A stretch of 32,181 nt of DNA, taken from the NCBI GenBank assembly GCA_937868485.1, contig CALMML010000006.1:1-32181 (forward strand), given 5' to 3'. This DNA is from an uncultured Myxococcales bacterium (lineage in GTDB: Bacteria; Myxococcota_A; Polyangia; Palsa-1104; JAEUJZ01). The notes under the pieces were generated by a model. It saw only the letters and a list, made by a program, of their open reading frames with translations, had not been told where the DNA came from and ran no database searches. Below are positions 5,503 to 29,595 of the stretch, piece after piece. Numbering within the stretch: the stretch's first letter is position 1; each line of letters begins with the position of its first letter. The position numbers and the translations under genes were made by a program.

Positions 5503-6084
5503 ATGCCTTCTGGCCGGAACGCCATCGCAACCGTGGCGGGAACTGCTCTTCGCGCTGCCTGTTTTGTCTTCGGGACACTGTGCTTTTCGTCCCTGAGCGC
5601 ATATGCGAACGAGGTTGTCACACTCGCTGACAACACCCAGATCGCTGGCAAGCTGACCCATTACTTTGACGGCGTCGTCGTGATGGAAACCTCCGGCGGA
5701 CAAAAGCTGGAGCTACCGCGCGACAAGATCAAGTCGATCGCCTTCAAGCTGCCGCCGCCGCGTGCCGAGTTTTCGACGCCGGAAAAGACGTTTGAGCGCT
5801 GGCGCTCAGCGATGGTGAAGGGCGACGTTCAAAAGGCGGTCGACTGTTACGCGCTTCTGTACCAAGGCCAGGTCGGACAGCAGATGATGCAGTCTGCCGA
5901 CGAGCTGAAGAAGGCGCAGAAGGATCTCGAAGGTGTGCAGTTTGAGCTTCGCGGTAGCACGTTCAAGAGCCAAGGCGAGTTCAAGCTGGCCAACCTGAAG
6001 GTGCGACGAACCAAGGGCGAAAACGTCCAGACCGACGAAGTGAACCTTGTGCTGGAGAACGGCGAGTGGAAGATGACGCCGTAA
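5503..6084 (+). CDS. Exported protein with SmA/LSm-like N-terminal region, unknown function
   Basis: 193 residues. Residues 1-35 form a Sec signal peptide ending SAYA before Asn36. The mature start (EVVTLADNTQIAGKLTHYFDG through LPRDKIKSIAF, about 37-85) resembles a small barrel in which a strand-turn-strand pattern of the form 'dG..i.G' is followed by 'I.sI'. Residues 92-193 (TFERWRSAMVKGDVQKAVDCYA onward) look like an NTF2/DUF4878-type alpha+beta domain with a helical segment near 120-145. Both domain readings are weak pattern matches. The ribosome binding site AGGAG and ATG are well placed. The last 19 nt overlap the start of the giant repeat protein, so the two are probably translationally coupled and may act together in the periplasm or outer membrane. 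Confidence 0.8.
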   Translation: MPSGRNAIATVAGTALRAACFVFGTLCFSSLSAYANEVVTLADNTQIAGKLTHYFDGVVVMETSGGQKLELPRDKIKSIAFKLPPPRAEFSTPEKTFERWRSAMVKGDVQKAVDCYALLYQGQVGQQMMQSADELKKAQKDLEGVQFELRGSTFKSQGEFKLANLKVRRTKGENVQTDEVNLVLENGEWKMTP

Positions 6085-9000
6085 AAATCTCCCGTCGCTG
6101 GTTGCCGCGCTTTGCACTTGCTCTGTCCCTGCTGCTGGGGATGGGAACTGGCTCTGCGTCTGCGGCACCGCGTCCATCGGGAGTGGTTCTGTTGCCGCGC
6201 AGTGCGGTCCCGCTTGCCAAGGGATCGCTCGCGCCGCTGCCTGCCTTTGCGGGACAGTCCGCTGCGTCTTCGCCCGGTGCGACGACAAGTGGCGGGCCTG
6301 CGACGACAGCGCCAGCATTTGCGCCGCTGCCGCTGTTTGCCCAAGCGCAGCAGGTGAAGACCACCGTTGAACCGTCCGACGAGCCGCAGCGCTTTGCGAC
6401 GCCTGCTCCGGGCCAAGTCATCGAAGACGATGAAGAGGAATCCGAAGAGGAAAAGCAGAAGAAGCGCGAGCTGGCCAGCAAACCCAAGCCTGAGTGTGAC
6501 AGCGACGGTCAGTGTCCCGACAAGACGATCTGCGTCAAGCAGACCTGTCAAAGCATCCAGCGTCCGCTTTCAGCCATCCTGTACTTTCACCGTCTGGGGC
6601 CGATCGGCTACCGGATGGTTCTGCCGTTCTATTATCACTTCTGGCATCCGACGAAGAAGACGCGGGTTCTGTTTCCGCTGTTCGCCGATCACCAGAACTT
6701 CAAAGAGCAGTCGCGCGATGTCTGGGTGTTTCCGACGTACCAGTATCATCGCGACCCGGAGCTGCGCGCGCATCGCATCTGGCCGCTGTTTTTTCATCAC
6801 AGCTACGGAACAAACGGAGAAAAAGGCCGCGCTGTTGGTCTTTTGCCGCTCCTGTGGGTGACGAAGAAGACCGATCAGACGACGGTGGTTCTGCCGCCGC
6901 TTCTCTTCTTTTATCACCGCAACATCGAAGAGCAGCGCTCGGACACGGGCTTTTTGCCGCTGCTGCTGTTTGTGCGCAAGCAGCCCGATCTGACGCAGGC
7001 GTTCTTTTTGGCGCTGGGTTTTTATCGCAAGACGCCGGAACGCACCGTCGGAGGCTTCCTGCCGCTGGTGTTCCACTCGAAGACGGCGGAAAAGCGCCAC
7101 ACGCTGGTTCTGCCGCTATTTTACGACGGGGAAAACTACCAAAGCGGTACGCGGACCTCGACGCTGCTGCCGCTTTATCTCTATCATCGCGGTGCGGACA
7201 AGAGCCGCCTTATCGTCACGCCGCTCGGTGGATCGTACAAAGATCCTGAATCCGAATCGACGACGACGGTTGTGCTGACGCCACCTTCGTTCCATCGCGA
7301 AGATCCGCTGCGCCGCTTTACGACGGTGCTGCCGCCGCTGGCGATGTGGTATCGCAACAAGACGACCGGCGCTTCGTGGGGCTACGCGGGACCGTTTTTC
7401 TACACGCGTGACGAAGAAGGTGGCAGCGAGGGCATGGCTCCGCTCTATCTGCACTTCTTCAGCCGTCGCTCACAGAGTGATACGCGGGTTGTGGTTCCGC
7501 TTTTGGCTGCGCTTCATACGTCGCCGCAGCGAAAGTTCGGCTTCCTCGGTCCGATCTACGGATGGTCGTCTCCCACGGGCTCGGGCGGAGGACTTCTTCC
7601 GCTCATCTCCGTCGCACGCGGCCAACATCCGCACGTTGCGCTTTTGCCGCCGCTGTTCATCTATTCGGCGGACAAGCAAAACGGCAGCTTCCATGTCTCG
7701 ATCGGTCCGGTGTTTGCGCGGGTGAAGACCCGAGGCGAAGACGCTGGCTACACCGCGGGTCTGTTTCCGCTGTTGTGGTTCCACCGTCAGGGCGGCAGCA
7801 GCATGCAGGCGCTGTTCCCGCTCTTTTTCCACAGCCGTCGTCCGTATCAGGAAACGCTCCAGCTGGGACCGTTCTACTACCATCGGAAGTGCCCGGAATA
7901 CCTGGGAGACAAGCGCGCAGAAGTGACGGCGGGCTTGGCACCGCTGCTGTTTTGGAAGCGCTCACCGGATAGCAGCTACACCGTGCTGTTTCCGCTGATC
8001 TGGCAGGTTCGCAATCCGAACAAGTCGGCGCTGGTGATCGGACCGCTGTTCCACACCACGCAGAAGACGCCGGAAGGTCAGGTCTCGACCACCGGACTGG
8101 TTCCGCTCTTTTATATGTCGCGATCGCCGAAGTCGACGTTCGCGATTGCGCCGCTGTTTGCGTACAAGTCGACGCCCGAGACGCGCACGTTCTGGCTGGG
8201 TCCGTACGTGGAGCATGCTTCGGGTCTGGGCACTCGCGAACAGACGGTGACGCGGGCGCTGCTGCCGCTGTTCTTTACCTACTGTGGTCCGAAGCGTCGG
8301 GCGTCGGTGCTGTTCCCGCTGTTTATGGATGTGCGGGACGAAGACACGCGGTTCCGCGAGGTGGCGCTGCTGTACTACGGCGTCAAGACGCCCAAGACGA
8401 CGGCGCATGTGGTGCTGCCGCTGTTTTTCCACGTTCGCGGCGAAGAGCGATCCACGACGGTGCTTCTGCCGTTCTTCTATTCGAAGAACCACAAGACCGA
8501 ATCGACGCAGGCCGGACTTCTGCCGCTGTTTGCGTTTGGCAAGAGCCGCGATACGACCTGGGCGACGACTCCGCTTGGCTTCTTCTACAAAGACGAAAAG
8601 GCGACGCGCGCGGCGGCGCTGCTGTTCTATGCGGATCTGCGCAAGGATCGCGACGACTTCGGCGTCTTCCCGCTGTGGTTTTACACCCGACGAGACACCG
8701 CGCATGCGCTGTACGTCCTGCCGTTCTTTTATCACTCGCATGATGCGGCGCGCAGTCGTTCGCTGACGGTGCTCGGACCGCTGTTCTTTGGACGCAAAGG
8801 CCAGGGAACCTACGGCGGATTTTTGCCGCTGTTCTACGGAGCGAACGATGGAGACGGCTCGTATCGCTTCATGGCGCTGCCGCTTGTGTACTTTTCGCAC
8901 CGCGCGGGAAATGCCCCGGAAAACTGGCTGGTTACGCCGCTGTTTGGTGTGAACAAGAACCCGGTTGGTTATCGCTTCTGGATCGGACCGCTGTACGTGC

Positions 9001-9938
9001 GTCGTCAAGATCCGGTGACGAGCGCGGCGCTGTTCCCGCTGTTCTATTACAGCCGCGACGACAAGGCGAAGACGGAGACGAGCTTTGTGCTGCCGCTGTG
9101 GCTGCGAACCAGCTCTCCGGCGCGCAGCTTGACGATGGTGACGCCGCTGTTTTGGCATGAGCGAACGCTGATGCGGCGGATCTCGGTGCTGTTCCCGCTG
9201 CTGCTGGATGTTCAGCATCTGCACTCGGATCGGCTGACGGCGGCGGGTCCGGTGATTCCGCTGTTTGTGCGCTACGCCGACTACGCAAACAAGACGACGA
9301 GCTGGGTGTTTCCGCCGATTTTGACCTACGTCAAGCGTCGCGCCGACGGCTATCACAACGCGGTGGTGTTCCCGCTTTTGTGGCACTTCGGAGGCAAAGA
9401 TCGCTCGACGACGGTGCTGTTCCCGCTGTTCTACCATGTGCGTCGTCCGGCGACGCTGTTTACGGCGCTGCTGCCTTTCTATGCCTACTCTCGGGACGAG
9501 CACAACACGCGCTCGCTGTTCATTCCGCCGCTGCTCACCTGGGCGCGCGACTATGAAGACGGCAGCCGTGATCGCGTGGTGTTCCCGCTGATCTGGCACT
9601 TCAAGCGTCCGAAGCAGACGACGACGGTGTTCTTCCCAATCGGCGCGCACTGGAGCAACGCCAAAGGTCACTACACGCTGGTGCTCAACAGCTACTACTA
9701 CAAGGGCATCGGCGAGCGAGCGGGCGCATATCGCTTCGAGTTCTGGCCGCTGTTCCACGTCGGACGTCCGCGCGCGGGCGATTTGGAGTGGAGCATCCTG
9801 TCGGGCTTTGTGGGCTACTCGCGAGACGGCATTCGGCGCACACTGCGCTTGCTGTGGGGCGTGTTCATTCCGCTAGAGCCCGTCGGTGCGCGGGCCTCGT
9901 GGTACGGCGCAAGCTGGCGCATGGCTTCCGACCGCTAG
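6066..9938 (+). CDS. Giant exported protein made of ~59 ~18-residue LFPLFYH repeats
   Basis: 1290 residues. A hydrophobic signal segment (about 14-34, ending SASA) is followed by a Pro/Ala-rich stretch, an acidic run (120-130) and a four-Cys motif (Cys144, 150, 156 and 161, of the form CxxxxxCxxxxxCxxxxC). From about residue 181 to 1233 the chain consists of tandem units. In nearly all of them a central Pro is flanked by hydrophobic and aromatic residues (consensus about TTVLFPLFYHSR), then a polar turn rich in Lys, Arg, Asp, Thr and Pro. About 59 units were counted by eye at 16-24 residue spacing, most often 17. This pattern suggests a long run of short beta strands: a surface solenoid, an extended sheet, or a large outer-membrane barrel. 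I do not recognise the family. The GTG start at 6066 has GGAG 8 nt upstream and overlaps the previous gene. A TTG at 6102 is an alternative start. Confidence 0.9.
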   Translation: MEDDAVKISRRWLPRFALALSLLLGMGTGSASAAPRPSGVVLLPRSAVPLAKGSLAPLPAFAGQSAASSPGATTSGGPATTAPAFAPLPLFAQAQQVKTTVEPSDEPQRFATPAPGQVIEDDEEESEEEKQKKRELASKPKPECDSDGQCPDKTICVKQTCQSIQRPLSAILYFHRLGPIGYRMVLPFYYHFWHPTKKTRVLFPLFADHQNFKEQSRDVWVFPTYQYHRDPELRAHRIWPLFFHHSYGTNGEKGRAVGLLPLLWVTKKTDQTTVVLPPLLFFYHRNIEEQRSDTGFLPLLLFVRKQPDLTQAFFLALGFYRKTPERTVGGFLPLVFHSKTAEKRHTLVLPLFYDGENYQSGTRTSTLLPLYLYHRGADKSRLIVTPLGGSYKDPESESTTTVVLTPPSFHREDPLRRFTTVLPPLAMWYRNKTTGASWGYAGPFFYTRDEEGGSEGMAPLYLHFFSRRSQSDTRVVVPLLAALHTSPQRKFGFLGPIYGWSSPTGSGGGLLPLISVARGQHPHVALLPPLFIYSADKQNGSFHVSIGPVFARVKTRGEDAGYTAGLFPLLWFHRQGGSSMQALFPLFFHSRRPYQETLQLGPFYYHRKCPEYLGDKRAEVTAGLAPLLFWKRSPDSSYTVLFPLIWQVRNPNKSALVIGPLFHTTQKTPEGQVSTTGLVPLFYMSRSPKSTFAIAPLFAYKSTPETRTFWLGPYVEHASGLGTREQTVTRALLPLFFTYCGPKRRASVLFPLFMDVRDEDTRFREVALLYYGVKTPKTTAHVVLPLFFHVRGEERSTTVLLPFFYSKNHKTESTQAGLLPLFAFGKSRDTTWATTPLGFFYKDEKATRAAALLFYADLRKDRDDFGVFPLWFYTRRDTAHALYVLPFFYHSHDAARSRSLTVLGPLFFGRKGQGTYGGFLPLFYGANDGDGSYRFMALPLVYFSHRAGNAPENWLVTPLFGVNKNPVGYRFWIGPLYVRRQDPVTSAALFPLFYYSRDDKAKTETSFVLPLWLRTSSPARSLTMVTPLFWHERTLMRRISVLFPLLLDVQHLHSDRLTAAGPVIPLFVRYADYANKTTSWVFPPILTYVKRRADGYHNAVVFPLLWHFGGKDRSTTVLFPLFYHVRRPATLFTALLPFYAYSRDEHNTRSLFIPPLLTWARDYEDGSRDRVVFPLIWHFKRPKQTTTVFFPIGAHWSNAKGHYTLVLNSYYYKGIGERAGAYRFEFWPLFHVGRPRAGDLEWSILSGFVGYSRDGIRRTLRLLWGVFIPLEPVGARASWYGASWRMASDR
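6606..9767 (+). repeat. Coding tandem-repeat tract, ~59 units of ~18 codons
   Basis: This is the DNA behind residues 181-1234 of the giant protein. Units recur every 48-63 nt (one of 72 nt) and share recurring short words such as ccgctgttc (Pro-Leu-Phe). The units have diverged well beyond near-identical copies, so the array looks old and selected rather than a recent slippage expansion. Units lacking the central Pro lie near residues 316, 768, 852 and 1207. Confidence 0.8.
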
Positions 9939-11921: not shown

Positions 11922-13421
11922 ATGAACACAGAGCACGCGATCGTAAAGAGCTACGTCGCTGCCCATCAACCCGTTACGCAAGAGCTGCAGGCGGTTCTCT
12001 CGGTGAGTGAGGGACAAGTTCCTGCGGATCTACGCGGTGTCCTGTTTCGCAATGGGCCAGGACGGTTTGCCAGCAACGGACAGACGTACGGACACCTCAT
12101 CGATGGCGATGGCATGGTGGTCCGATTCGCAATTGGCTCGACCGGACCCGACGGACAGCCGTGCATTCGCTACCGCAACAGCTATGTCCGCACCACTGAG
12201 TTTGTGTACGAGCAGCGCGCAGGAAGACTCCTGTATCGCAACTTTGGCACCAATCGATCGGGCGGCTTCTTTGGGAACTTCTTCCGAACGCACCTAAAAA
12301 ACGTCGCCAACACCAGCGTCATCTATCACCACGGTCGTCTGTTTGCGCTGTGGGAAGGGGGACTTCCGCACCTGCTGGATCCGGTGACGCTCGACACGCT
12401 GGAACGCTATGACTTCTTCGGTGCGCTCAAGAATCGGGGCCCTTTGCTCGAGCGTGTGATGATGCCGGAGCTTCCGTTTTCCGCGCATCCCAAGGTCGAT
12501 CCGCAGACCGGCGATCTGTATAACTTCGGACTGTATCTGGGACCGAATCCGAAGATCCTCCTATACACGATTCGATCCGGTGTTGCGCTGACGGTGACGC
12601 GAGAAATTCCGCTGGCCGCTCCGCAGCTTGCACATGACTTTTTGCTGACCCCAAACTGGCAGATTCTGTTTCTGTTTCCGGTCTCTGTGCGGATGCTTCC
12701 TACGCTGATGGGAAAGCCTCCGCTTGGTGCGGTTCAGGAAATCGAAGGCGGAGTGACGCGCATCCTGCTGATTCCGCGTGATGGCGGTCCGGTGCGAGAG
12801 TTTCAAGCGTCGCCGTGCTTTGTGCTGCACTTTGTGAATGCGTACGAAGACGAAAACGGCTGCGTGGTCGTCGATGGCTGTCGGCAAGAGCGCTTTCCTG
12901 ACGCACCACGACCGGGAGAGCTGCTCGCCGGACACATCTCGGACATTCCGCACGTTCAGCTTACGCGCTATCGCATCGATCCGAAGGCAGAAGATGGCAG
13001 CGAAGTGACCGAGTCTTCCCTCGGTGGATACTCATCCGAGCTGCCGCGTGTGCATCCGAGTCGTGAAGGCTTTCCCTATCGCTATGCGTACACGGTTTCG
13101 GCGACTCCGTTTGCGCCGCACGGACTGTTTTCCGCGATTGCACGCATTGATGTCGACACCCAGCAGACGCTGCTGCGTGACTTTGCGCCAGGCATTCCGG
13201 GTGAGCCCGTGATGGTTCCGCGTCCCGGTAGCAGCGACGAGACTGATGGCTGGATCCTGACCGTGGTCTATCACGGCAGTGCGCATCGCTCTGCGCTCTA
13301 CATCTTGGATGCGCGCGATCTGTCTACGGTCTGCGTGGCCGAGCTTCCGCATCACATTCCGCCTGGATTTCACGGCAACTGGGTGTCTTCGCCCGACTGT
13401 CCGCCCGGCTGGAGTTCCTAA
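11922..13421 (+). CDS. Carotenoid oxygenase (RPE65/CCD family)
   Basis: 499 residues, normal for the family, which uses a four-His non-haem Fe(II) site to cleave carotenoids, apocarotenoids or stilbenoid double bonds with O2. N-terminal GVLFRNGPGRF (39-49) and HLIDGDGMVVRF (58-69) are classic. The four iron ligands are placed by eye at His189 (SAHPKVDP), His238 (AHDFLLT), His303 (VLHFVNAYEDE) and His484 (PPGFHGNW). All are present, so an active dioxygenase is expected. It is cytosolic or peripherally membrane-bound, since no signal peptide is seen. No carotenoid-biosynthesis gene is nearby, so the substrate cannot be read from context. The gene has no strong Shine-Dalgarno sequence and converges with the C39 peptidase gene across a gap full of palindromic elements. 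Confidence 0.92.
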   Translation: MNTEHAIVKSYVAAHQPVTQELQAVLSVSEGQVPADLRGVLFRNGPGRFASNGQTYGHLIDGDGMVVRFAIGSTGPDGQPCIRYRNSYVRTTEFVYEQRAGRLLYRNFGTNRSGGFFGNFFRTHLKNVANTSVIYHHGRLFALWEGGLPHLLDPVTLDTLERYDFFGALKNRGPLLERVMMPELPFSAHPKVDPQTGDLYNFGLYLGPNPKILLYTIRSGVALTVTREIPLAAPQLAHDFLLTPNWQILFLFPVSVRMLPTLMGKPPLGAVQEIEGGVTRILLIPRDGGPVREFQASPCFVLHFVNAYEDENGCVVVDGCRQERFPDAPRPGELLAGHISDIPHVQLTRYRIDPKAEDGSEVTESSLGGYSSELPRVHPSREGFPYRYAYTVSATPFAPHGLFSAIARIDVDTQQTLLRDFAPGIPGEPVMVPRPGSSDETDGWILTVVYHGSAHRSALYILDARDLSTVCVAELPHHIPPGFHGNWVSSPDCPPGWSS

Positions 13422-15110: not shown

Positions 15111-15986
15111 ATGGTGGAAGCGGAAACAAGCTCGGCAGACGCAGCAGACGAGACCGTGAGCGCCTGGGATCAGCCTGAAAACGCGGTGGCCTATGCTCGG
15201 TTTTGTGCGGAATCGGACTATTACCGCAGCGTCAGCGAGGCGCTGGTGAAGGCCGCGCAGCTTTCGTTGGGGGAGCGCGTCTGTGACCTGGGCTGCGGAA
15301 CGGGACAGACGCTGTCTGCGATTGCGGGTGCGCTGGGACGCGGTGCGTGCGTGGTGGCAGTCGATCCGGCGCGCGCGATGCTTTCCTATGCGCAGAACTC
15401 ACAGCGCTTGCCCGGTGTCTCGTTTGTGCTGGGAACCAGTCGTCGTCTTCCTTCGCTGCGAGGAGCGTCGGGCTTTGATGCGGTGCTGTGCTCGTCGGCG
15501 GCGTGGCTGCATCCGAGTCGGGATGAGCTGCTTTCGGACGTGTTTCAGTCGCTGTCTGGGCGTGGACGCTTGGCGCTGTCGATCCCAAGCGAGTTCGTCG
15601 GTGAGTCGAGTCACCTGATCGAGCCAACGGCGCAGCGCTTTGTGACCTTGCTTTCGTCGCTGCGAACTGAGCTGGGAATCGGGCAGGCGGCTGTCACTCC
15701 GTCCGTCGAGCCTTCGCTGCGCGTGCGCGATGCGTTTTCGCTTCACGCGTGGCTGGATGCGCTGTCGAACGCGGGCTTTTCGCGCGTCGAGGTATCGGTT
15801 CATCCGTTTGAGATGCCCGTCCGTGACTGGGCCGCGCATCTGGCGATTCCGGCGGTGCTATCGGGTCTGCTGCCGCACGCTTCCGACGATCAGCGACGGC
15901 AGTTTGTGAATCAGCTCTCGCAGCGCTGTGACCAAGACGCGCGAGCGGCCCGACCATGGCACCTGCTCGTCGCGTGGCGAGTGTAA
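15111..15986 (+). CDS. Class I SAM-dependent methyltransferase
   Basis: 291 residues with a Rossmann-type methyltransferase core. Motif I is VCDLGCGTGQT (57-67), the post-I acidic residue is Asp85 in VVAVDPARAM, and a motif IV-like segment FDAVLCSSAAWLHPS follows. The C-terminal half (about 180-291) is less typical and likely covers the substrate. It resembles UbiE/type-11 small-molecule methyltransferases, and no target is identifiable. The start is uncertain: GGAGGAGG (15103-15110) abuts the ATG at 15111, and GTG at 15114 would have slightly better spacing. It lies 103 nt upstream of the large lipid synthase on the same strand, so modification of a lipid product is possible but unproven. 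Confidence 0.88.
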   Translation: MVEAETSSADAADETVSAWDQPENAVAYARFCAESDYYRSVSEALVKAAQLSLGERVCDLGCGTGQTLSAIAGALGRGACVVAVDPARAMLSYAQNSQRLPGVSFVLGTSRRLPSLRGASGFDAVLCSSAAWLHPSRDELLSDVFQSLSGRGRLALSIPSEFVGESSHLIEPTAQRFVTLLSSLRTELGIGQAAVTPSVEPSLRVRDAFSLHAWLDALSNAGFSRVEVSVHPFEMPVRDWAAHLAIPAVLSGLLPHASDDQRRQFVNQLSQRCDQDARAARPWHLLVAWRV

Positions 15987-16089: not shown

Positions 16090-19000
16090 ATGACCTCGTC
16101 CGCTCCTCCTCTTGACGTTGCCGAGACGCTTGCAGGCAAGCGTGTTCTGTTTATTGGCGGTACCGGCTTCGTCGGCAAAGTGACGATGTCGATGCTGCTG
16201 TGTAAGTATCCGCAGCTCGGCAAGCTGTATGCGCTGGTGCGTCCCGGCTCGGGCTACACCGCCGAGACGCGGTTTTTCCAAAAGATTGCCAAGTCGCGTC
16301 CGTTCGATCCGGTGTGGCAGACCTTTGGCGGGGCCACCGAGCAGCATCTGCGCGAAAAGGTGGTGCCACTCGCCGGAGACGTATCGCGTGTGAACGTCGG
16401 TCTGTCGGATGCGGACCTGGCGCTTTTGACCAAAGACGGGCCGCTTGATGCGATCTTGAACTCGGCGGGACTGGTGTCGTTTAACCCGTCGCTGGAATCG
16501 GCGCTGCGGATCAACGTCCACGGTGTGCGCTACGTGATGGATCTGGCGCGTGCGACGGGGGCCAAAGTGGTTCACGTCTCGACCTGTTTCGTAGCGGGAC
16601 GACGCGAAGGCGAGGTCTGGGAAGACGAGCAGCTCATCGGGTACTTTCCGCGTCGACCAGGGCACTCGCGGTCGGACTCGGCGGGATCGGCGCTGCGCAA
16701 GGGCGACTTCGACCCGGAAGCCGAGATTGCCGACTGTGAGCGCCTGATTGAACAGACGCGAGCGCGGGCCGACGATCGGGCGCACCTGTCGATGTTCCGT
16801 GACCAAGGCGCGGATCGACTGCGTCAAGAAGGCCGCGATCCCGACGATGAGCGGCACCTCAAAGCGGCGCTTCAGCGTGAAAAGAAGACCTGGACGGCAG
16901 AGCGTCTGACCGAGCTGGGCATGGAGCGCGCGCAGCACTGGGGCTTTACCAACACCTACACGTACACCAAGAGCATCGGCGATCAGCTGTGTGCGCTGGC
17001 GGCGCTGCCCGAGTCCGAGCGCAAAGACGGCAAAAAGCCGGTGCGTGTCTCGATTGTTCGTCCCGCGATCGTCGAGTCGGCGGTGAGCTATCCGTTCCCC
17101 GGCTGGAACGAAGGCTTTAACACCACCGCGCCGCTCATCTTTATGGTCTTAAAAGGCCACATTCAGGTTCCGGCGTCGCTCGGTACGATCCTGGATCTGA
17201 TCCCAGTTGATATGGTTGCGTCGGGAACGATTGCGGCGCTGGCTGCGACGATTGCCGAGAGAAACGAGCTGATTTATCACCTGGGCTCGAGCGACAGTAG
17301 CCCGCTGCGGATGCCGCGCGCCGTCGAGCTAACGGGTCTGTACAAGCGTCGTCACTTCCGCGCCAAGCTCGACGCGGGCGTGGGTGATCCGGTGATGAAT
17401 CGGGTGCGCTCGCGAATGGAGTCGGTTCCCGTCAGCAAGGCGCGCTATCAGTATCTGAGCGTGCCGCTTCTGCGCGGGGTGGCGGAAGCTGCGTCGGGAC
17501 TGATTGGCGATGCGCTCGACAAGATGTGGGGCATGCCGCGTCTGACGGCGCTCGGTGAGCGGGCGCGCGAAAAGCTGGATGCGACGGCGCAGCTTGCCAA
17601 GCAAGGCGAGTCGATCTTCGACCTGTTTTTGCCGTTTGTGCACGACAACGCGCCGATCTTCCGCACCGACAACACGCGACGGCTGTACGAAAGCCTGACG
17701 CCGCACGATCAGACGATCCTGCGCTGGGTGCCTGAGACCATCAACTGGCGCGAGTACATGCTGGATGTCCACATTCCGGGTCTGGAAAAGTGGATCTTCC
17801 CGTCGCTCGATGAAGAGTTCCAAGCGCGTGCCAAGGCGGTCTACACCTATCGCGACCTGCTGGAAATGCTGGAGTCGGCGGCGAAAGCGTATCGAGGCCG
17901 AACCGCGATGCGGATGCTGCCTCCGCTCGATGCCGACGGAGAGCCGGTGGGCTACGGTCAGCGCTACACCTATCGCGACTTGAGCGAGCGCTCGGCGCGG
18001 GTGTCGCTGACGCTGCGACGGCTGGGGCTGCCGGTCTCGGGCAAGGTGCTGCTGATGTCCGAAAACCGTCCCGAGTGGGCGATTTCGTACTTTGGCATCT
18101 TGAAGTCAGCCGCCGTGGTGGTTCCCGTCGACAAAGAAGCGACGCTCGACGAAGTGCTGAACATCTGTCGCTGGGCCGATGTCTACGCGGCGATTGTGTC
18201 GGACAAGGTGGCGGCGCGGATTGACATCCGAGGCGCGCTGGCGCAGTCGATGCCGCAGGTCAAGGTGCTGCGCTTCGACGAAGTGCTCGGTGGAGAGACG
18301 GAGCACGCGCTTGTCCCGGCGAGCAGCCTGCCTGCCATTACGCTGTCGGGTCGCGCCGAGGAGATGGCGTCGCTCATCTTTACGTCGGGTACGACGGGTC
18401 GTCCGAAGGGCGTCATGCTGTCGCATCGCAACTTCACGTCGCTGCTGTCGAAGATGGGTGGCGTGTTCGATGTCGATAAGCACGACGGACTTCTGTCGGT
18501 GCTGCCGCTGCATCACACCTTCGAGTTTTCCGCCGGTCTGCTGATGCCGATGTCACGCGGCGCGCAGATTGCGTACCTGCCGGAAGTGAACGCGGACGCG
18601 CTTCAGAATGCGTTTGCGTCGACGCACATCACGGGAATGGTCGGTGTTCCGGCGCTGTATCAGCTCTTGTATCGGCGGATTACCAAGCAGATCTCGGATC
18701 GACTGCCGTCGCGAGCGGTGCCGTGGATTCTGCGACTGCTCGAGCGACTGTATGACCTGACGCGATCGATTCGTGAGCGGTCGCGCAAGTCGCTGGGCTT
18801 TGAGCTGAACCTGCCACGCGCGCTGTTTTTCCCGGTTCACAGTCGGTTTGGCGGCAAGCTGCGGCTGCTCATCAGCGGTGGTTCGGCGCTGCCCGTCGAG
18901 ACGATGAAAGAGTTCCGAGGCCTGGGCTTCAACCTGTACGAAGGCTACGGCATGACGGAAAGCTCGCCGGTTCTGACGGTGACGCGACCGGGAACGCAGC

Positions 19001-20646
19001 TTCTGCTGGGCAGCGTCGGCGAAGCACTGCCCGGCGTCGATGTGAAGATCCACGAACCGGATGCGAGCGGCGTCGGAGAAGTCATCGCTTCGGGTCCGAA
19101 CGTGATGCTCGGGTATTACAACGATCCAGAGCTGACCGCCGAGACGATCAAAAACGGCTATCTGCACACGGGTGACTTGGGCCGCACCGACGGAAAGGGC
19201 CACCTGTATATCGTCGGACGCAAGAAGGACGTGATCATTGGTCTCAACGGTGAAAACGTCTATCCCGACGAGCTGGAAGAGCGCTATCGCGAGTCGCCGT
19301 TTATCAAAGAGCTGTGCGTCGTCGGTCTTCCCGAGGCCGAGCTAAAAGACAATCCGTCGCCGGATGACAAGGGCGAAGCGGTGGCGTGCTTGGTGGTTCC
19401 GGCCTATGACGCGCCTCAGTCGGAAGGTCTGTCGCGAGAAGACGTGCGCGAAAAGGTGCGCGAGCACATGCGTCAGGTGTCGGGCAAGCTGTCGGTGGCC
19501 AAGCGGGTGAAGATCCTGCATCTCACCGACCTGGAGCTGCCCAAGACCGCGACGCGCAAGGTCAAGCGCAAGCTGGTGGTCGAAGAGCTGCGTCGGCTGG
19601 AACGAACGCGCCGACAAGCGCAAGCCGAGGTGCAGAGCGGCGGAACGCAGTCGGCGGGGGACTGGCTGCTGAACCTGTTGGCGGATGTGACGGGCAAGCC
19701 GCGATCGTCGGTGCGTCCAGAGTCGACGATGCAAGAGCTGGGGCTCGATTCGCTGTCGTTTGCGGAGCTGGGCGTTGCGCTGGAAGCAGCGGGCGTGCAG
19801 GTGCCGGAAAACGCCGACATCACCGGCATCGTCAGCGTGCCCGAGCTGCAAAAGACGATTGCGCAGTGGGGACGACGCAAGCCGCAAAAAGACGAAAAGA
19901 AGGATCAGCCGAAGAAAAAGAAGAAGAAAGCCGACAGCGAGAGCACCGACGATCGCTTGGTGCTTCCCGACTGGCTGGTGCGGGCGGGAAATCACGGGCT
20001 CAACGTCGGTCAGCGGGCGCTGTACGAGCGAGTGCTCAAGACGCGCGTCACGGGCAAAGCGTATCTGCCTGCGTCGCGGCAGTTTATCGTCGCGGCGAAC
20101 CACTCCAGTCACTTGGACATGGGCCTTGTCAAGCATGCGCTCGGCGACTGGGGCGATCGACTGGTGGCGCTGGCGGCGAAGGACTACTTCTTCGACGATC
20201 CGCTCAAGCGGGTGTACTTCGAAAACTTCACGAACCTGATTCCGATGGATCGGACGGGATCGCTGCGAGAGTCTCTGCGGCTGGCGGCGCGTGTCATCGA
20301 AGACGGCTACGTGCTGCTGATCTTCCCCGAAGGTACGCGCAGTGAAACGGGGCTGATGCAGCCGTTCAAAGCGTCGATTGGCTATCTGGCGCTGCATCAC
20401 AAGATCGACGTGCTGCCGATGTATCTGGAAGGGACGCACGACGCGATGCCGAAGGGAAATGTGCTGCCCAAGCAAGGCACGTCGGTGTCGGCGCACATCG
20501 GTCCGGTGCTGACGTTCGAGAGCCTTCAGCAAGCGGTCGCGAAGGTGCCGCGTACCGAACAGAATCGCGAAGCGGCGCGGCTCGTTGAAGTGGCGGTGCG
20601 CAAGCTGGCCCCGGAAGGTCCAAACCGCAAGATGCCGACGGAATAG
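16090..20646 (+). CDS. Four-domain lipid synthase: acyl reductase / acyl-CoA synthetase / ACP / PlsC acyltransferase
   Basis: 1518 residues. Domain 1 (about 15-410) is a fatty-acyl-CoA-reductase/thioester-reductase-like SDR with GGTGFVG (23-29) and active site Tyr290-x3-Lys294. It contains a charged helical insertion at about 190-280. Domain 2 (about 585-1170) is an AMP-forming acyl-CoA/ACP synthetase with FTSGTTGRPKG (764-774), GYGMTESSP (952-960), HTGDLG (1026-1031) and probable catalytic Lys1157. Domain 3 (about 1187-1262) is a carrier domain with LGLDSLSF, phosphopantetheine on Ser1221. A Lys-rich linker (1264-1280) leads to domain 4, a PlsC acyltransferase (about 1295-1500) with NHSSHLD (1337-1343, HX4D) and FPEGTRS (1412-1418). 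Expected work: activate a fatty acid, hold it on the carrier, reduce it to aldehyde or alcohol, and/or transfer it to a glycerol-type acceptor. It recalls the multifunctional ElbD of myxobacterial ether-lipid synthesis (from memory). All catalytic motifs look intact. Confidence 0.93.
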   Translation: MTSSAPPLDVAETLAGKRVLFIGGTGFVGKVTMSMLLCKYPQLGKLYALVRPGSGYTAETRFFQKIAKSRPFDPVWQTFGGATEQHLREKVVPLAGDVSRVNVGLSDADLALLTKDGPLDAILNSAGLVSFNPSLESALRINVHGVRYVMDLARATGAKVVHVSTCFVAGRREGEVWEDEQLIGYFPRRPGHSRSDSAGSALRKGDFDPEAEIADCERLIEQTRARADDRAHLSMFRDQGADRLRQEGRDPDDERHLKAALQREKKTWTAERLTELGMERAQHWGFTNTYTYTKSIGDQLCALAALPESERKDGKKPVRVSIVRPAIVESAVSYPFPGWNEGFNTTAPLIFMVLKGHIQVPASLGTILDLIPVDMVASGTIAALAATIAERNELIYHLGSSDSSPLRMPRAVELTGLYKRRHFRAKLDAGVGDPVMNRVRSRMESVPVSKARYQYLSVPLLRGVAEAASGLIGDALDKMWGMPRLTALGERAREKLDATAQLAKQGESIFDLFLPFVHDNAPIFRTDNTRRLYESLTPHDQTILRWVPETINWREYMLDVHIPGLEKWIFPSLDEEFQARAKAVYTYRDLLEMLESAAKAYRGRTAMRMLPPLDADGEPVGYGQRYTYRDLSERSARVSLTLRRLGLPVSGKVLLMSENRPEWAISYFGILKSAAVVVPVDKEATLDEVLNICRWADVYAAIVSDKVAARIDIRGALAQSMPQVKVLRFDEVLGGETEHALVPASSLPAITLSGRAEEMASLIFTSGTTGRPKGVMLSHRNFTSLLSKMGGVFDVDKHDGLLSVLPLHHTFEFSAGLLMPMSRGAQIAYLPEVNADALQNAFASTHITGMVGVPALYQLLYRRITKQISDRLPSRAVPWILRLLERLYDLTRSIRERSRKSLGFELNLPRALFFPVHSRFGGKLRLLISGGSALPVETMKEFRGLGFNLYEGYGMTESSPVLTVTRPGTQLLLGSVGEALPGVDVKIHEPDASGVGEVIASGPNVMLGYYNDPELTAETIKNGYLHTGDLGRTDGKGHLYIVGRKKDVIIGLNGENVYPDELEERYRESPFIKELCVVGLPEAELKDNPSPDDKGEAVACLVVPAYDAPQSEGLSREDVREKVREHMRQVSGKLSVAKRVKILHLTDLELPKTATRKVKRKLVVEELRRLERTRRQAQAEVQSGGTQSAGDWLLNLLADVTGKPRSSVRPESTMQELGLDSLSFAELGVALEAAGVQVPENADITGIVSVPELQKTIAQWGRRKPQKDEKKDQPKKKKKKADSESTDDRLVLPDWLVRAGNHGLNVGQRALYERVLKTRVTGKAYLPASRQFIVAANHSSHLDMGLVKHALGDWGDRLVALAAKDYFFDDPLKRVYFENFTNLIPMDRTGSLRESLRLAARVIEDGYVLLIFPEGTRSETGLMQPFKASIGYLALHHKIDVLPMYLEGTHDAMPKGNVLPKQGTSVSAHIGPVLTFESLQQAVAKVPRTEQNREAARLVEVAVRKLAPEGPNRKMPTE

Positions 20647-26865: not shown

Positions 26866-28473
26866 CTAGTGCAGCGGCAGGTGCTGACGGGCTGCAGCCA
26901 AGATCGATCCGTTTTCACAGAGCGTGCGAACGGCCTCGATCTCGACGTGAAGCGGACGATCGTGAATCAGCTCGGGCACCTTGGAACGGACCAGTCGAAA
27001 CACCGACGACAGCGCGTCCGCAGGCAGAAGCGGCGCACGCAGCGAGATGCCTTGCGTCGCACAGCACAGCTCAATCGCCAGCACGGTACGGACGTTTTCG
27101 ACGATGCGCTGGAGCTTGTCCGCCGCGTGAACGCCCATCGAGACGTGATCTTCTCGACCCGCCGACGACGGAATCGAATCGACCGACGCGGGATGCGCCA
27201 AGATCTTGTTTTCCGACACGAGCGCTGCCGCCGTCACTTGCCCGATCATGTAGCCGGAGTTGAGCCCACTTTCGCGGATCAAAAAGGCGGGCAGTCCCGA
27301 CGACAAGTGTGGGTTGACGAGCTGCTCGATGCGACGCTCGGAGATGTTGGCCAGCTCGGCGGTCGCAATCCCGGCAAAGTCGAGCGCGAGCGCCACCGGC
27401 TGACCGTGAAAGTTGCCACCGCTCACGATGTCGTAGCGCAGCGGCTCGCTTTCGTTCGTCGTGGGCTCGACGAAGATGAGCGGGTTGTCGGTCGCGCTGC
27501 GCGTCTCGCTGAGCAGCACGCTGTGCGCATAGCCAATTCCGTCGCGGGACGCGCCATGAACCTGCGGCATGCAGCGCAGTGAGTACGGATCTTGGACTTT
27601 TCCACAGTTGCGATGCGACGCGACGATCGGACTGTCGGTGAGCAGCTTTCGCAGGTTTTCGGCGGACAGCGACTGACCCGGCTGCGGACGGGCGGCGTGA
27701 ATGCGCGGATCAAACGCACGCGGCGTCCCGAGCAGCGCTTCCAGCGACATCGCACCGATGATGTCGGCCAGCGTACAAAGCTCCAGCGCGTCGGCAATCG
27801 CCAGCATGCCAATCGAGGTCATGCACTGCGTCCCGTTGATGAGCGCCAGTCCTTCTTTGGCGGCGAGCACAATCGGAGTGATGCCTTCGTCGTCGTGCGC
27901 TTGTGCGGCGGTCTTGCGCTGTGCCCGATCGCCGAGCCCGACCTGGACTTCGCCTTCCCCGATGACACCAAGGGTCAGGTGCGCGAGCGGGGCCAAGTCT
28001 CCCGATGCACCGACGGAGCCGCGACTGGGCACACAGGGATGAATCTGCCGGTTGAGCAGCTCACACAGGCGCTCTGCGACGAGCAGCCGCACACCACTGT
28101 GCCCGAGCGACAAGGTACAGGCGCGCAGCAGCAGCATCCCGCGCACCACCGGAATCGGCAGCAGCGGTCCGACGCCAGCCGCGTGGGAACGCACCAAGTT
28201 GTACTGCAGCTCGACGATCTGCTTGGCGGAGATGCGCACGTCGGCCAAAAAGCCAAAGCCGGTGTTGATGCCGTACGCGCTCGGGGCTGCGTCGCCGCCG
28301 CTGACTAGCTCATCGACGACGGCACGAGAGCGTGTAATGCGCTGCTTGGCGGCTTCCGACAGCACGACCTTGCGGCCACTTCGACAGATGTCGCGCATGG
28401 CTGCCAGATCGAGCACATCGTGGCCTATCTGAAACGGGGTTTCTTGGTCGCGAAGCGAGGTGACAATCGACAT
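26866..28473 (-). CDS. hutH: Histidine ammonia-lyase
   Basis: 535 residues, slightly longer than typical HutH (about 510). It deaminates L-histidine to urocanate without ATP, using a 4-methylidene-imidazole-5-one cofactor formed from Ala156-Ser157-Gly158 (GSVGASGDLAPLAHL). Also seen: YGINTGFG (67-74) with catalytic Tyr67, the substrate-pocket segment NLVRSHAAGVG (92-102), whose Ser-His favours histidine over tyrosine or phenylalanine, and VQDPYSLRCMPQVHGA. It is expected to be a cytosolic homotetramer. No hutU, hutI or hutG lies next to it, so the rest of histidine breakdown must be elsewhere or absent. It diverges from panB across a 156-nt control gap. A secondary-metabolism aminomutase is an alternative, but the motifs fit a lyase. 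Confidence 0.93.
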   Translation of the reverse strand: MSIVTSLRDQETPFQIGHDVLDLAAMRDICRSGRKVVLSEAAKQRITRSRAVVDELVSGGDAAPSAYGINTGFGFLADVRISAKQIVELQYNLVRSHAAGVGPLLPIPVVRGMLLLRACTLSLGHSGVRLLVAERLCELLNRQIHPCVPSRGSVGASGDLAPLAHLTLGVIGEGEVQVGLGDRAQRKTAAQAHDDEGITPIVLAAKEGLALINGTQCMTSIGMLAIADALELCTLADIIGAMSLEALLGTPRAFDPRIHAARPQPGQSLSAENLRKLLTDSPIVASHRNCGKVQDPYSLRCMPQVHGASRDGIGYAHSVLLSETRSATDNPLIFVEPTTNESEPLRYDIVSGGNFHGQPVALALDFAGIATAELANISERRIEQLVNPHLSSGLPAFLIRESGLNSGYMIGQVTAAALVSENKILAHPASVDSIPSSAGREDHVSMGVHAADKLQRIVENVRTVLAIELCCATQGISLRAPLLPADALSSVFRLVRSKVPELIHDRPLHVEIEAVRTLCENGSILAAARQHLPLH

Positions 28474-28615
28474 AGCGCGCTTCGTAGCACAGAAGATTCA
28501 TCATTTTCGCGGGTTCCCCCTTGCTCCGCCCCGGCAAGGTGTGGAATCGATCAAGGGGTCCGCTCATCATTGGCCCTAGCACGCCGCTTGGATCCTCTGG
28601 CAGGACCGAGACGGC

Positions 28616-28621
28616 AAGGAG
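28616..28621 (+). promoter_or_regulatory. Ribosome binding site fixing the panB start
   Basis: AAGGAG lies 8 nt before the ATG at 28630. The reading frame is open 70 codons further upstream, but homology to PanB begins only after this site. Confidence 0.7.
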
Positions 28622-28629
28622 TCCGGTTC

Positions 28630-29595
28630 ATGTCTGTTCACACCGCTCGTCGGAGCAAAGTCACTCACCTCGATTTGCGCAAGATGAAGGAGCAAGGCGA
28701 ACGCATTGCCATGCTCACTGCCTACGATTACAGCTTTGCGCGGCTGTGCGACCAAGCGGGTACCGATGTGCTGCTCGTCGGTGATTCGCTGGGAATGGTC
28801 ATTCAAGGCCAGAAAAACACGCTGCCTGTGACGATGGATCACATGATCTATCACTGTCAGGCGGTGGCGCGCGGGGTTGAAGCCGCGACGGGCCGAGCGA
28901 TGATCGTCGGTGACTTGCCGTTTATGTCGTATCAGTCGGGGCTCGACGAAGCGATGCGCAATGCCGGGCTGCTGCTCAAAGAAGGTCAGGCCGAAGCGGT
29001 CAAGCTCGAAGGTGGCGCCGAGTATGCCGAGCTGGTCAGTCGCTTGGTTCGCGTCGGAATTCCGGTGATGGGACACATTGGACTCACGCCGCAGTCGCTG
29101 CATGCGCTTGGTGGCTTCAAAGTCCAAGGTCGCGAAGATGCGGCGGCGCAGCGACTGAAAGCCGACGCCCTGGCGCTGGCGGAAGCGGGCTGCTTTTCGC
29201 TGGTGCTCGAAGGCATTCCGCAAGAGCTGGGCGCCGAGATCACCGAGTCTTTGTCGATTCCCACCATCGGGATTGGCGCCGGTCCCGAGTGCGACGGTCA
29301 AGTGCTGGTCCTCTACGATCTGCTCGGGATGAATGAAGAGTTTCGGCCTCGCTTTGTGAAGCGCTACGAAAACTTCGCGGTTCGCGTGCGCACGGCCATC
29401 GACAGCTACATCGGCGAAGTGCGCGGCGGTGAGTTTCCGGGTCCCGAGCACTCGTTTTCACGCGGCGAAAAGAGCAAGGACAAGCCACGCGCACTTGCCG
29501 TCGGTGGTGTCGTCGCAGAGTCGGAAGGAAGCCAGCTGGAAGCGGTCGGAGTCGGCTGCATTCCGCTGCGGCCCGTTTCGCAAAAGCCGCAGTAA
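28630..29595 (+). CDS. panB: 3-methyl-2-oxobutanoate hydroxymethyltransferase PanB
   Basis: 321 residues. It catalyses the first committed step of pantothenate (vitamin B5) synthesis, adding the hydroxymethyl group of 5,10-methylene-THF to alpha-ketoisovalerate to give ketopantoate. Seen: MLTAYDYSFARLCDQAG (28-44), LLVGDSLGMV (48-57), VGDLPFMSY (93-101), AVKLEGG (123-129), MGHIGLTPQS (147-156) and LVLEGIP (191-197). Probable Mg ligands are Asp52, Asp95 and Glu127, with catalytic base Glu194. About 50 residues after residue 270 (Pro/Ser/Lys-rich, then Val/Gly-rich) exceed the usual 264-280-residue length and match no domain I know. It is cytosolic. panC and panD are not nearby, and the divergent neighbour is hutH. 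Confidence 0.95.
   Translation: MSVHTARRSKVTHLDLRKMKEQGERIAMLTAYDYSFARLCDQAGTDVLLVGDSLGMVIQGQKNTLPVTMDHMIYHCQAVARGVEAATGRAMIVGDLPFMSYQSGLDEAMRNAGLLLKEGQAEAVKLEGGAEYAELVSRLVRVGIPVMGHIGLTPQSLHALGGFKVQGREDAAAQRLKADALALAEAGCFSLVLEGIPQELGAEITESLSIPTIGIGAGPECDGQVLVLYDLLGMNEEFRPRFVKRYENFAVRVRTAIDSYIGEVRGGEFPGPEHSFSRGEKSKDKPRALAVGGVVAESEGSQLEAVGVGCIPLRPVSQKPQ

Follow-up and report, generated by a model that had tools for sequence, protein, structure and literature searches.

The locus analysed here raises the question of which product is made by a single protein that combines an acyl reductase, an acyl-activating domain, a carrier domain and an acyltransferase. The protein is encoded in a 32,181-nucleotide stretch of DNA from an uncultured Myxococcales bacterium, referred to in the following as the window, by a single intact open reading frame on the forward strand (16090-20646, ATG start, 1518 residues). 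At its N-terminus lies an NAD(P)-binding fatty-acyl reductase domain (16156..17223; NAD_binding_4, residues 23-378, PF07993, E=2e-45) with the motifs GGTGFVG and Y290xxxK294, followed by an FAR_C or 'Sterile' element (17590..17799, residues 501-570; PF03015, 1.4e-7), the match to which scores 3 bits under the gathering score. The acyl-activating AMP-binding (ACS) domain (17872..19119, residues 595-1010; PF00501, 1.2e-73) contains the loop SGTTGRPKG and continues into an AMP-binding_C subdomain (19270..19560, residues 1061-1157; PF13193, 3.6e-7). A PP-binding carrier domain (ACP; 19660..19812, residues 1191-1241; PF00550, 1.4e-8) with the motif LGLDSL and the phosphopantetheine serine S1221, and a PlsC/AGPAT-type acyltransferase (20041..20427, residues 1318-1446; PF01553, 3.5e-22) with NHSSHLD and FPEGTRS complete the chain. 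All six motifs named in the first-pass annotation are found in the open reading frame, and its coordinates and its order of reductase, adenylation, carrier and PlsC domains agree with the reading frame, the Pfam matches and the alignments.

In an alignment with 18 full-length relatives, which are 40-97% identical to the window protein, Y290 and K294 of the reductase, the SGTTG-PKG loop and S1221 of the carrier are invariant or nearly so, as are N1337-H1338-(x4)-D1343 and FPEGTRS of the PlsC domain. The catalytic motifs are again conserved in a second alignment of 15 more distant homologues. There the ACP varies more than any other domain and the linker between ACP and PlsC more than any other stretch, and all four domains stay fused across both alignments. 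Dozens of genomes in the phylum encode full-length homologues with an identical domain order, hence the architecture is not a product of chance. A class-level search returned homologues with ~39-46% identity, and among the matches listed in a wider scan four were full-length, at L061 (Bradymonadaceae), L062, L063 and L064 (Blastocatellia), with none from Myxococcus.

Carboxylic acid reductases (CARs) also consist of adenylation, carrier and SDR-type reductase domains, and the protein had at first been described as a permuted enzyme of this kind. The ranking of structural homologues does not support this assignment. When the first 590 residues were searched against PDB sequences, the best match was the fatty acyl-CoA reductase 7eoz (E=5e-42) and the second the myxalamid reductase domain (9e-12), while no CAR was matched under E=0.1. 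Residues 1-600, modelled with AlphaFold (mean pLDDT 85), are likewise nearest in fold to 7eoz, the rice protein DPW (E=1.2e-26, TM 0.63), whereas the R-domains of CARs reach E values of about 1e-10 and TM scores of 0.38-0.44. In addition, the FAR_C element is positioned C-terminal to the Rossmann part of the reductase, and CARs follow the order A-PCP-R, while in the window protein the reductase comes first and a PlsC domain is added. A permuted or otherwise rearranged CAR is ruled out by both rankings; sequence and predicted fold place the reductase in the FAR1/male-sterility type, as a putative alcohol-forming acyl reductase fused to ACS-ACP-PlsC. DPW uses acyl-ACP as substrate.

The linear order that had appeared unusual is already published and therefore not new: ElbD of Myxococcus xanthus, encoded in the elb operon (MIBiG BGC0000871) of a likewise myxobacterial host, is composed of FAR1, ACS, ACP and AGPAT-like domains (PMC9131029). 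There, elbD is flanked by elbC, the function of which is given as unknown, and by elbE, coding for an NAD epimerase/dehydratase, and shares the operon with elbB (HAD); in some myxobacteria elbB/elbC are unlinked (PMC9131029), hence linkage is no requirement. ElbD is required for ether lipids in M. xanthus and its ACS and ACP activities were demonstrated, while FAR and acyltransferase activities were not detected in vitro (PMC9131029).

Likeness to M. xanthus ElbD was judged from its published domain order and neighbourhood. The neighbourhoods of 65 homologues were gathered, in which ElbE is found in 57/65 loci, ElbC in 48/65 and ElbB in 42/65, all on one strand and in the order B-C-D-E. The resulting cassette comprises a HAD protein, a ~545-residue protein, ElbD and an SDR/epimerase; it is the elb operon minus elbA and agrees with the operon of M. 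xanthus. Orthology therefore rests on architecture and synteny, and the resemblance to ElbD noted in the first-pass annotation holds for the domain order as well as for the conserved elb neighbourhood of the orthologues. With a probability of roughly 0.87, we assign the gene as an elbD orthologue of alkyl-ether glycerolipid synthesis. The enzyme type is already known, and the protein extends it to another lineage.

Two other readings take up parts of this domain set. As a stand-alone enzyme of the fatty-alcohol or wax type, the protein would activate and reduce fatty acids and free the alcohols, with PlsC producing phosphatidic acid or wax-like esters and no part in ether formation; the FAR-type reductase and a fatty alcohol as plausible direct product are in line with this, and so is the separation of elbB, elbC and elbE from elbD in the window. 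It is nevertheless unlikely, given that the orthologues lie in the elb cassette, that ElbB, ElbC, ElbE, an alkyl-DHAP synthase (AGPS) and a PlsB-like enzyme are retained in the same genome (see below), and that free fatty alcohols were not detected for M. xanthus ElbD (PMC9131029). ACS and PlsC are also the two halves of Aas, where they share one chain as in the window protein, and the NCBIfam acyl-[ACP]-phospholipid O-acyltransferase models do match, albeit far under the cut-off (213 vs 1221 bits). Lysophospholipid remodelling of this kind, in which acyl-ACP made by ACS and ACP would be passed to PlsC for the reacylation of lysolipids and the FAR domain would be accessory, is very improbable: Aas has neither ACP nor reductase and a different domain order, whereas here an ACP and an entire FAR belong to the same chain and are conserved, within a neighbourhood of ether-lipid genes.

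Proteins of related composition are found more widely. Homologues of elbD with the same four-domain core, described as NRPS-like, are present in sponge metagenomes, in Acidobacteriota and Poribacteria and thus in other phyla than the genome studied here; they are flanked by hydrolase, dehydratase and oxidoreductase genes (PMC9426513). Some carriers of elbD homologues, namely Pontiella, showed no ether lipids (PMC11868695), which speaks against the ether-lipid assignment, as do the undetected FAR and acyltransferase activities of M. xanthus ElbD and the unlinked position of elbD in the window's genome (see below). Four genomes (G026, G042, G018, G034) contain reading frames of 573-828 residues that match ElbD over the FAR part only, with 38-39% identity, and are possibly comparable to the FAR-GNPAT fusion MXAN_1675. 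Outside the Myxococcota, relatives with ACS-ACP-PlsC and no FAR were observed at L066-L073 (Bacteroidales, Verrucomicrobiia, Uhrbacteria), consistent with the published remark that FAR is missing from most ElbD-like proteins.

In the window and in the near relatives G002 and G003, no elb genes adjoin elbD, different from the linked elbB, elbC and elbE of M. xanthus. However, the genome to which the window belongs contains strong orthologues on other contigs, each a clear best match to the respective cassette member of the relatives: ElbC on C189 (81% identity), ElbB on C283 (68%) and ElbE on C305 (67%). On this evidence the operon is dispersed rather than lost. The same genome encodes an orthologue of AGPS (the mammalian enzyme, 4bby, is matched with E=1.4e-165), directly followed by a PlsB/GNPAT-like acyltransferase (L199, G000:C328, 9642-12979). 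This acyltransferase lacks a FAR domain, whereas the corresponding operon of M. xanthus has a FAR-GNPAT fusion (PMC9131029), which suggests that the FAR domain of ElbD may provide the fatty alcohol for AGPS. The placement of AGPS in this genome is less certain, since the 20,484-base contig C328 (L199/L247) holds a long repeat with an offset of 13,867, the copy being exact over its first 6,133 bases and agreeing at 6,429/6,617 bases up to the contig end; it is either a tandem duplication, a circular element or an assembly artefact.

CarF (Lipid_desat, PF10520) is absent from this genome and from all 14 genomes of its order, while it occurs in other families of the phylum. As CarF is missing, plasmalogens are not expected, and a plasmalogen was rejected as the product; the orthologue, in a lineage with unlinked elb genes, predicts lipids that are probably of the alkyl-ether (plasmanyl) and not of the plasmenyl type.

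For the preferred elbD assignment, the following route to ether lipids is proposed. The ACS domain would adenylate a free fatty acid and load it onto the phosphopantetheine of the ACP, and we infer all catalytic steps after this loading. Using NADPH, the FAR domain would convert the acyl chain on the ACP into an aldehyde or alcohol, and the reduced chain would become the sn-1 alkyl chain. Formation of the ether bond is placed outside ElbD, either at the AGPS orthologue or at another step depending on ElbC and ElbE. A keto or hemiacetal intermediate would be reduced by ElbE, an SDR. Finally, the PlsC domain would add the (sn-2) acyl chain to the alkyl-glycerol-phosphate.

Within this route, the identity of ElbC is of particular interest. 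ElbC orthologues score 827-847 bits against the NCBIfam model NF052592 ('NPN-dependent hydroxyacid isomerase, LarAH14/15/16'; cut-off 740) and have the LarA fold; K230 in the pincer motif GGxK is invariant, as are H155 and H246. By sequence and fold, ElbC is a predicted nickel-pincer protein of the LarA superfamily (LarAH14/15/16), with which it shares the pincer lysine. In contrast to LarA, it has no counterpart of the catalytic His174, as the Mar2 segment carrying this second catalytic histidine is a gap in ElbC. The LarAH groups 14 and 15 also have no His174 counterpart (PMC12611868), and LarA homologues without the second histidine were suggested to perform perhaps another hydride-mediated reaction and maybe no racemisation (PMC7583248). 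A link to the nickel cofactor is provided by larB-larE-larC, which in two genomes lie directly upstream of elbB-C-D-E on the opposite strand (L168:2292-5246 in G050; L169:1928-4074 in G056). In the window's genome LarC is present, on two contig fragments. Furthermore, larC co-occurs with elbD (23/25 genomes vs 17/31; Fisher p=0.003 for 56 genomes, with kinship ignored), which is only supporting evidence.

ElbC, without its second histidine, might carry out the missing hydride-transfer step, for instance at the level of an ester, a hemiacetal or glycerol C2, together with ElbD and ElbE. We regard this as a tentative proposal, possible but rather less probable than its opposite, and the link of ElbC to ether-bond chemistry may serve as a lead, not as a demonstration. 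Among the papers searched, none brought LarAH, lactate racemase or DUF2088 together with ether lipids, and an elbC mutant is not reported in the review of the system (PMC9131029). If the proposal were true, the nickel-pincer cofactor would serve in a reaction other than racemisation and ether lipids could be made without AGPS. It would also join two puzzles, the formation of the ether bond in ElbD-dependent bacteria and the reaction of LarA homologues without His174. This connection is more worth pursuing than the ElbD orthologue, which is in itself of modest interest.

Upstream of elbD, at a distance of 103 bp and in the same direction, lies a gene for a SAM-dependent methyltransferase (15111..15986, forward strand; PF13649, 3e-13), which had been proposed to modify the product. 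Its close homologues are restricted to G001 (55%) and G002 (69%) of the same genus, in both cases beside elbD, corresponding to 2/65 loci, so that it is no general component of the system. Between the two closest genomes the methyltransferase is 69% identical and ElbD 97%; it thus diverges much faster. It may be co-transcribed with elbD in the genus, but as a pathway member it was rejected for its lack of conservation past the genus, and it probably stands outside the core pathway. The arrangement could also be read as an NRPS-like secondary-metabolite locus, in which the released lipid would be methylated by the product of the gene at 15111. Although three genomes within the genus share the co-directional gene, its absence beside elbD at all other loci, its rapid divergence relative to ElbD and a window without other biosynthetic genes make such a function extremely unlikely.

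Several further genes of the window were recorded. A 1290-residue reading frame at 6066-9938 (forward strand) has no Pfam match and only a partial NCBIfam match, to the LA_1737 C-terminal family. At 11922-13421, also on the forward strand, a homologue of RPE65-type carotenoid/lignostilbene cleavage dioxygenases is encoded (PF03055, 1e-126; below the NCBIfam cut-offs). The histidine ammonia-lyase gene hutH (26866-28473, reverse strand) scores over the cut-off, and divergent to it lies panB for ketopantoate hydroxymethyltransferase (28420-29595, forward strand), the product of which has an N-terminal extension of ~80 residues.
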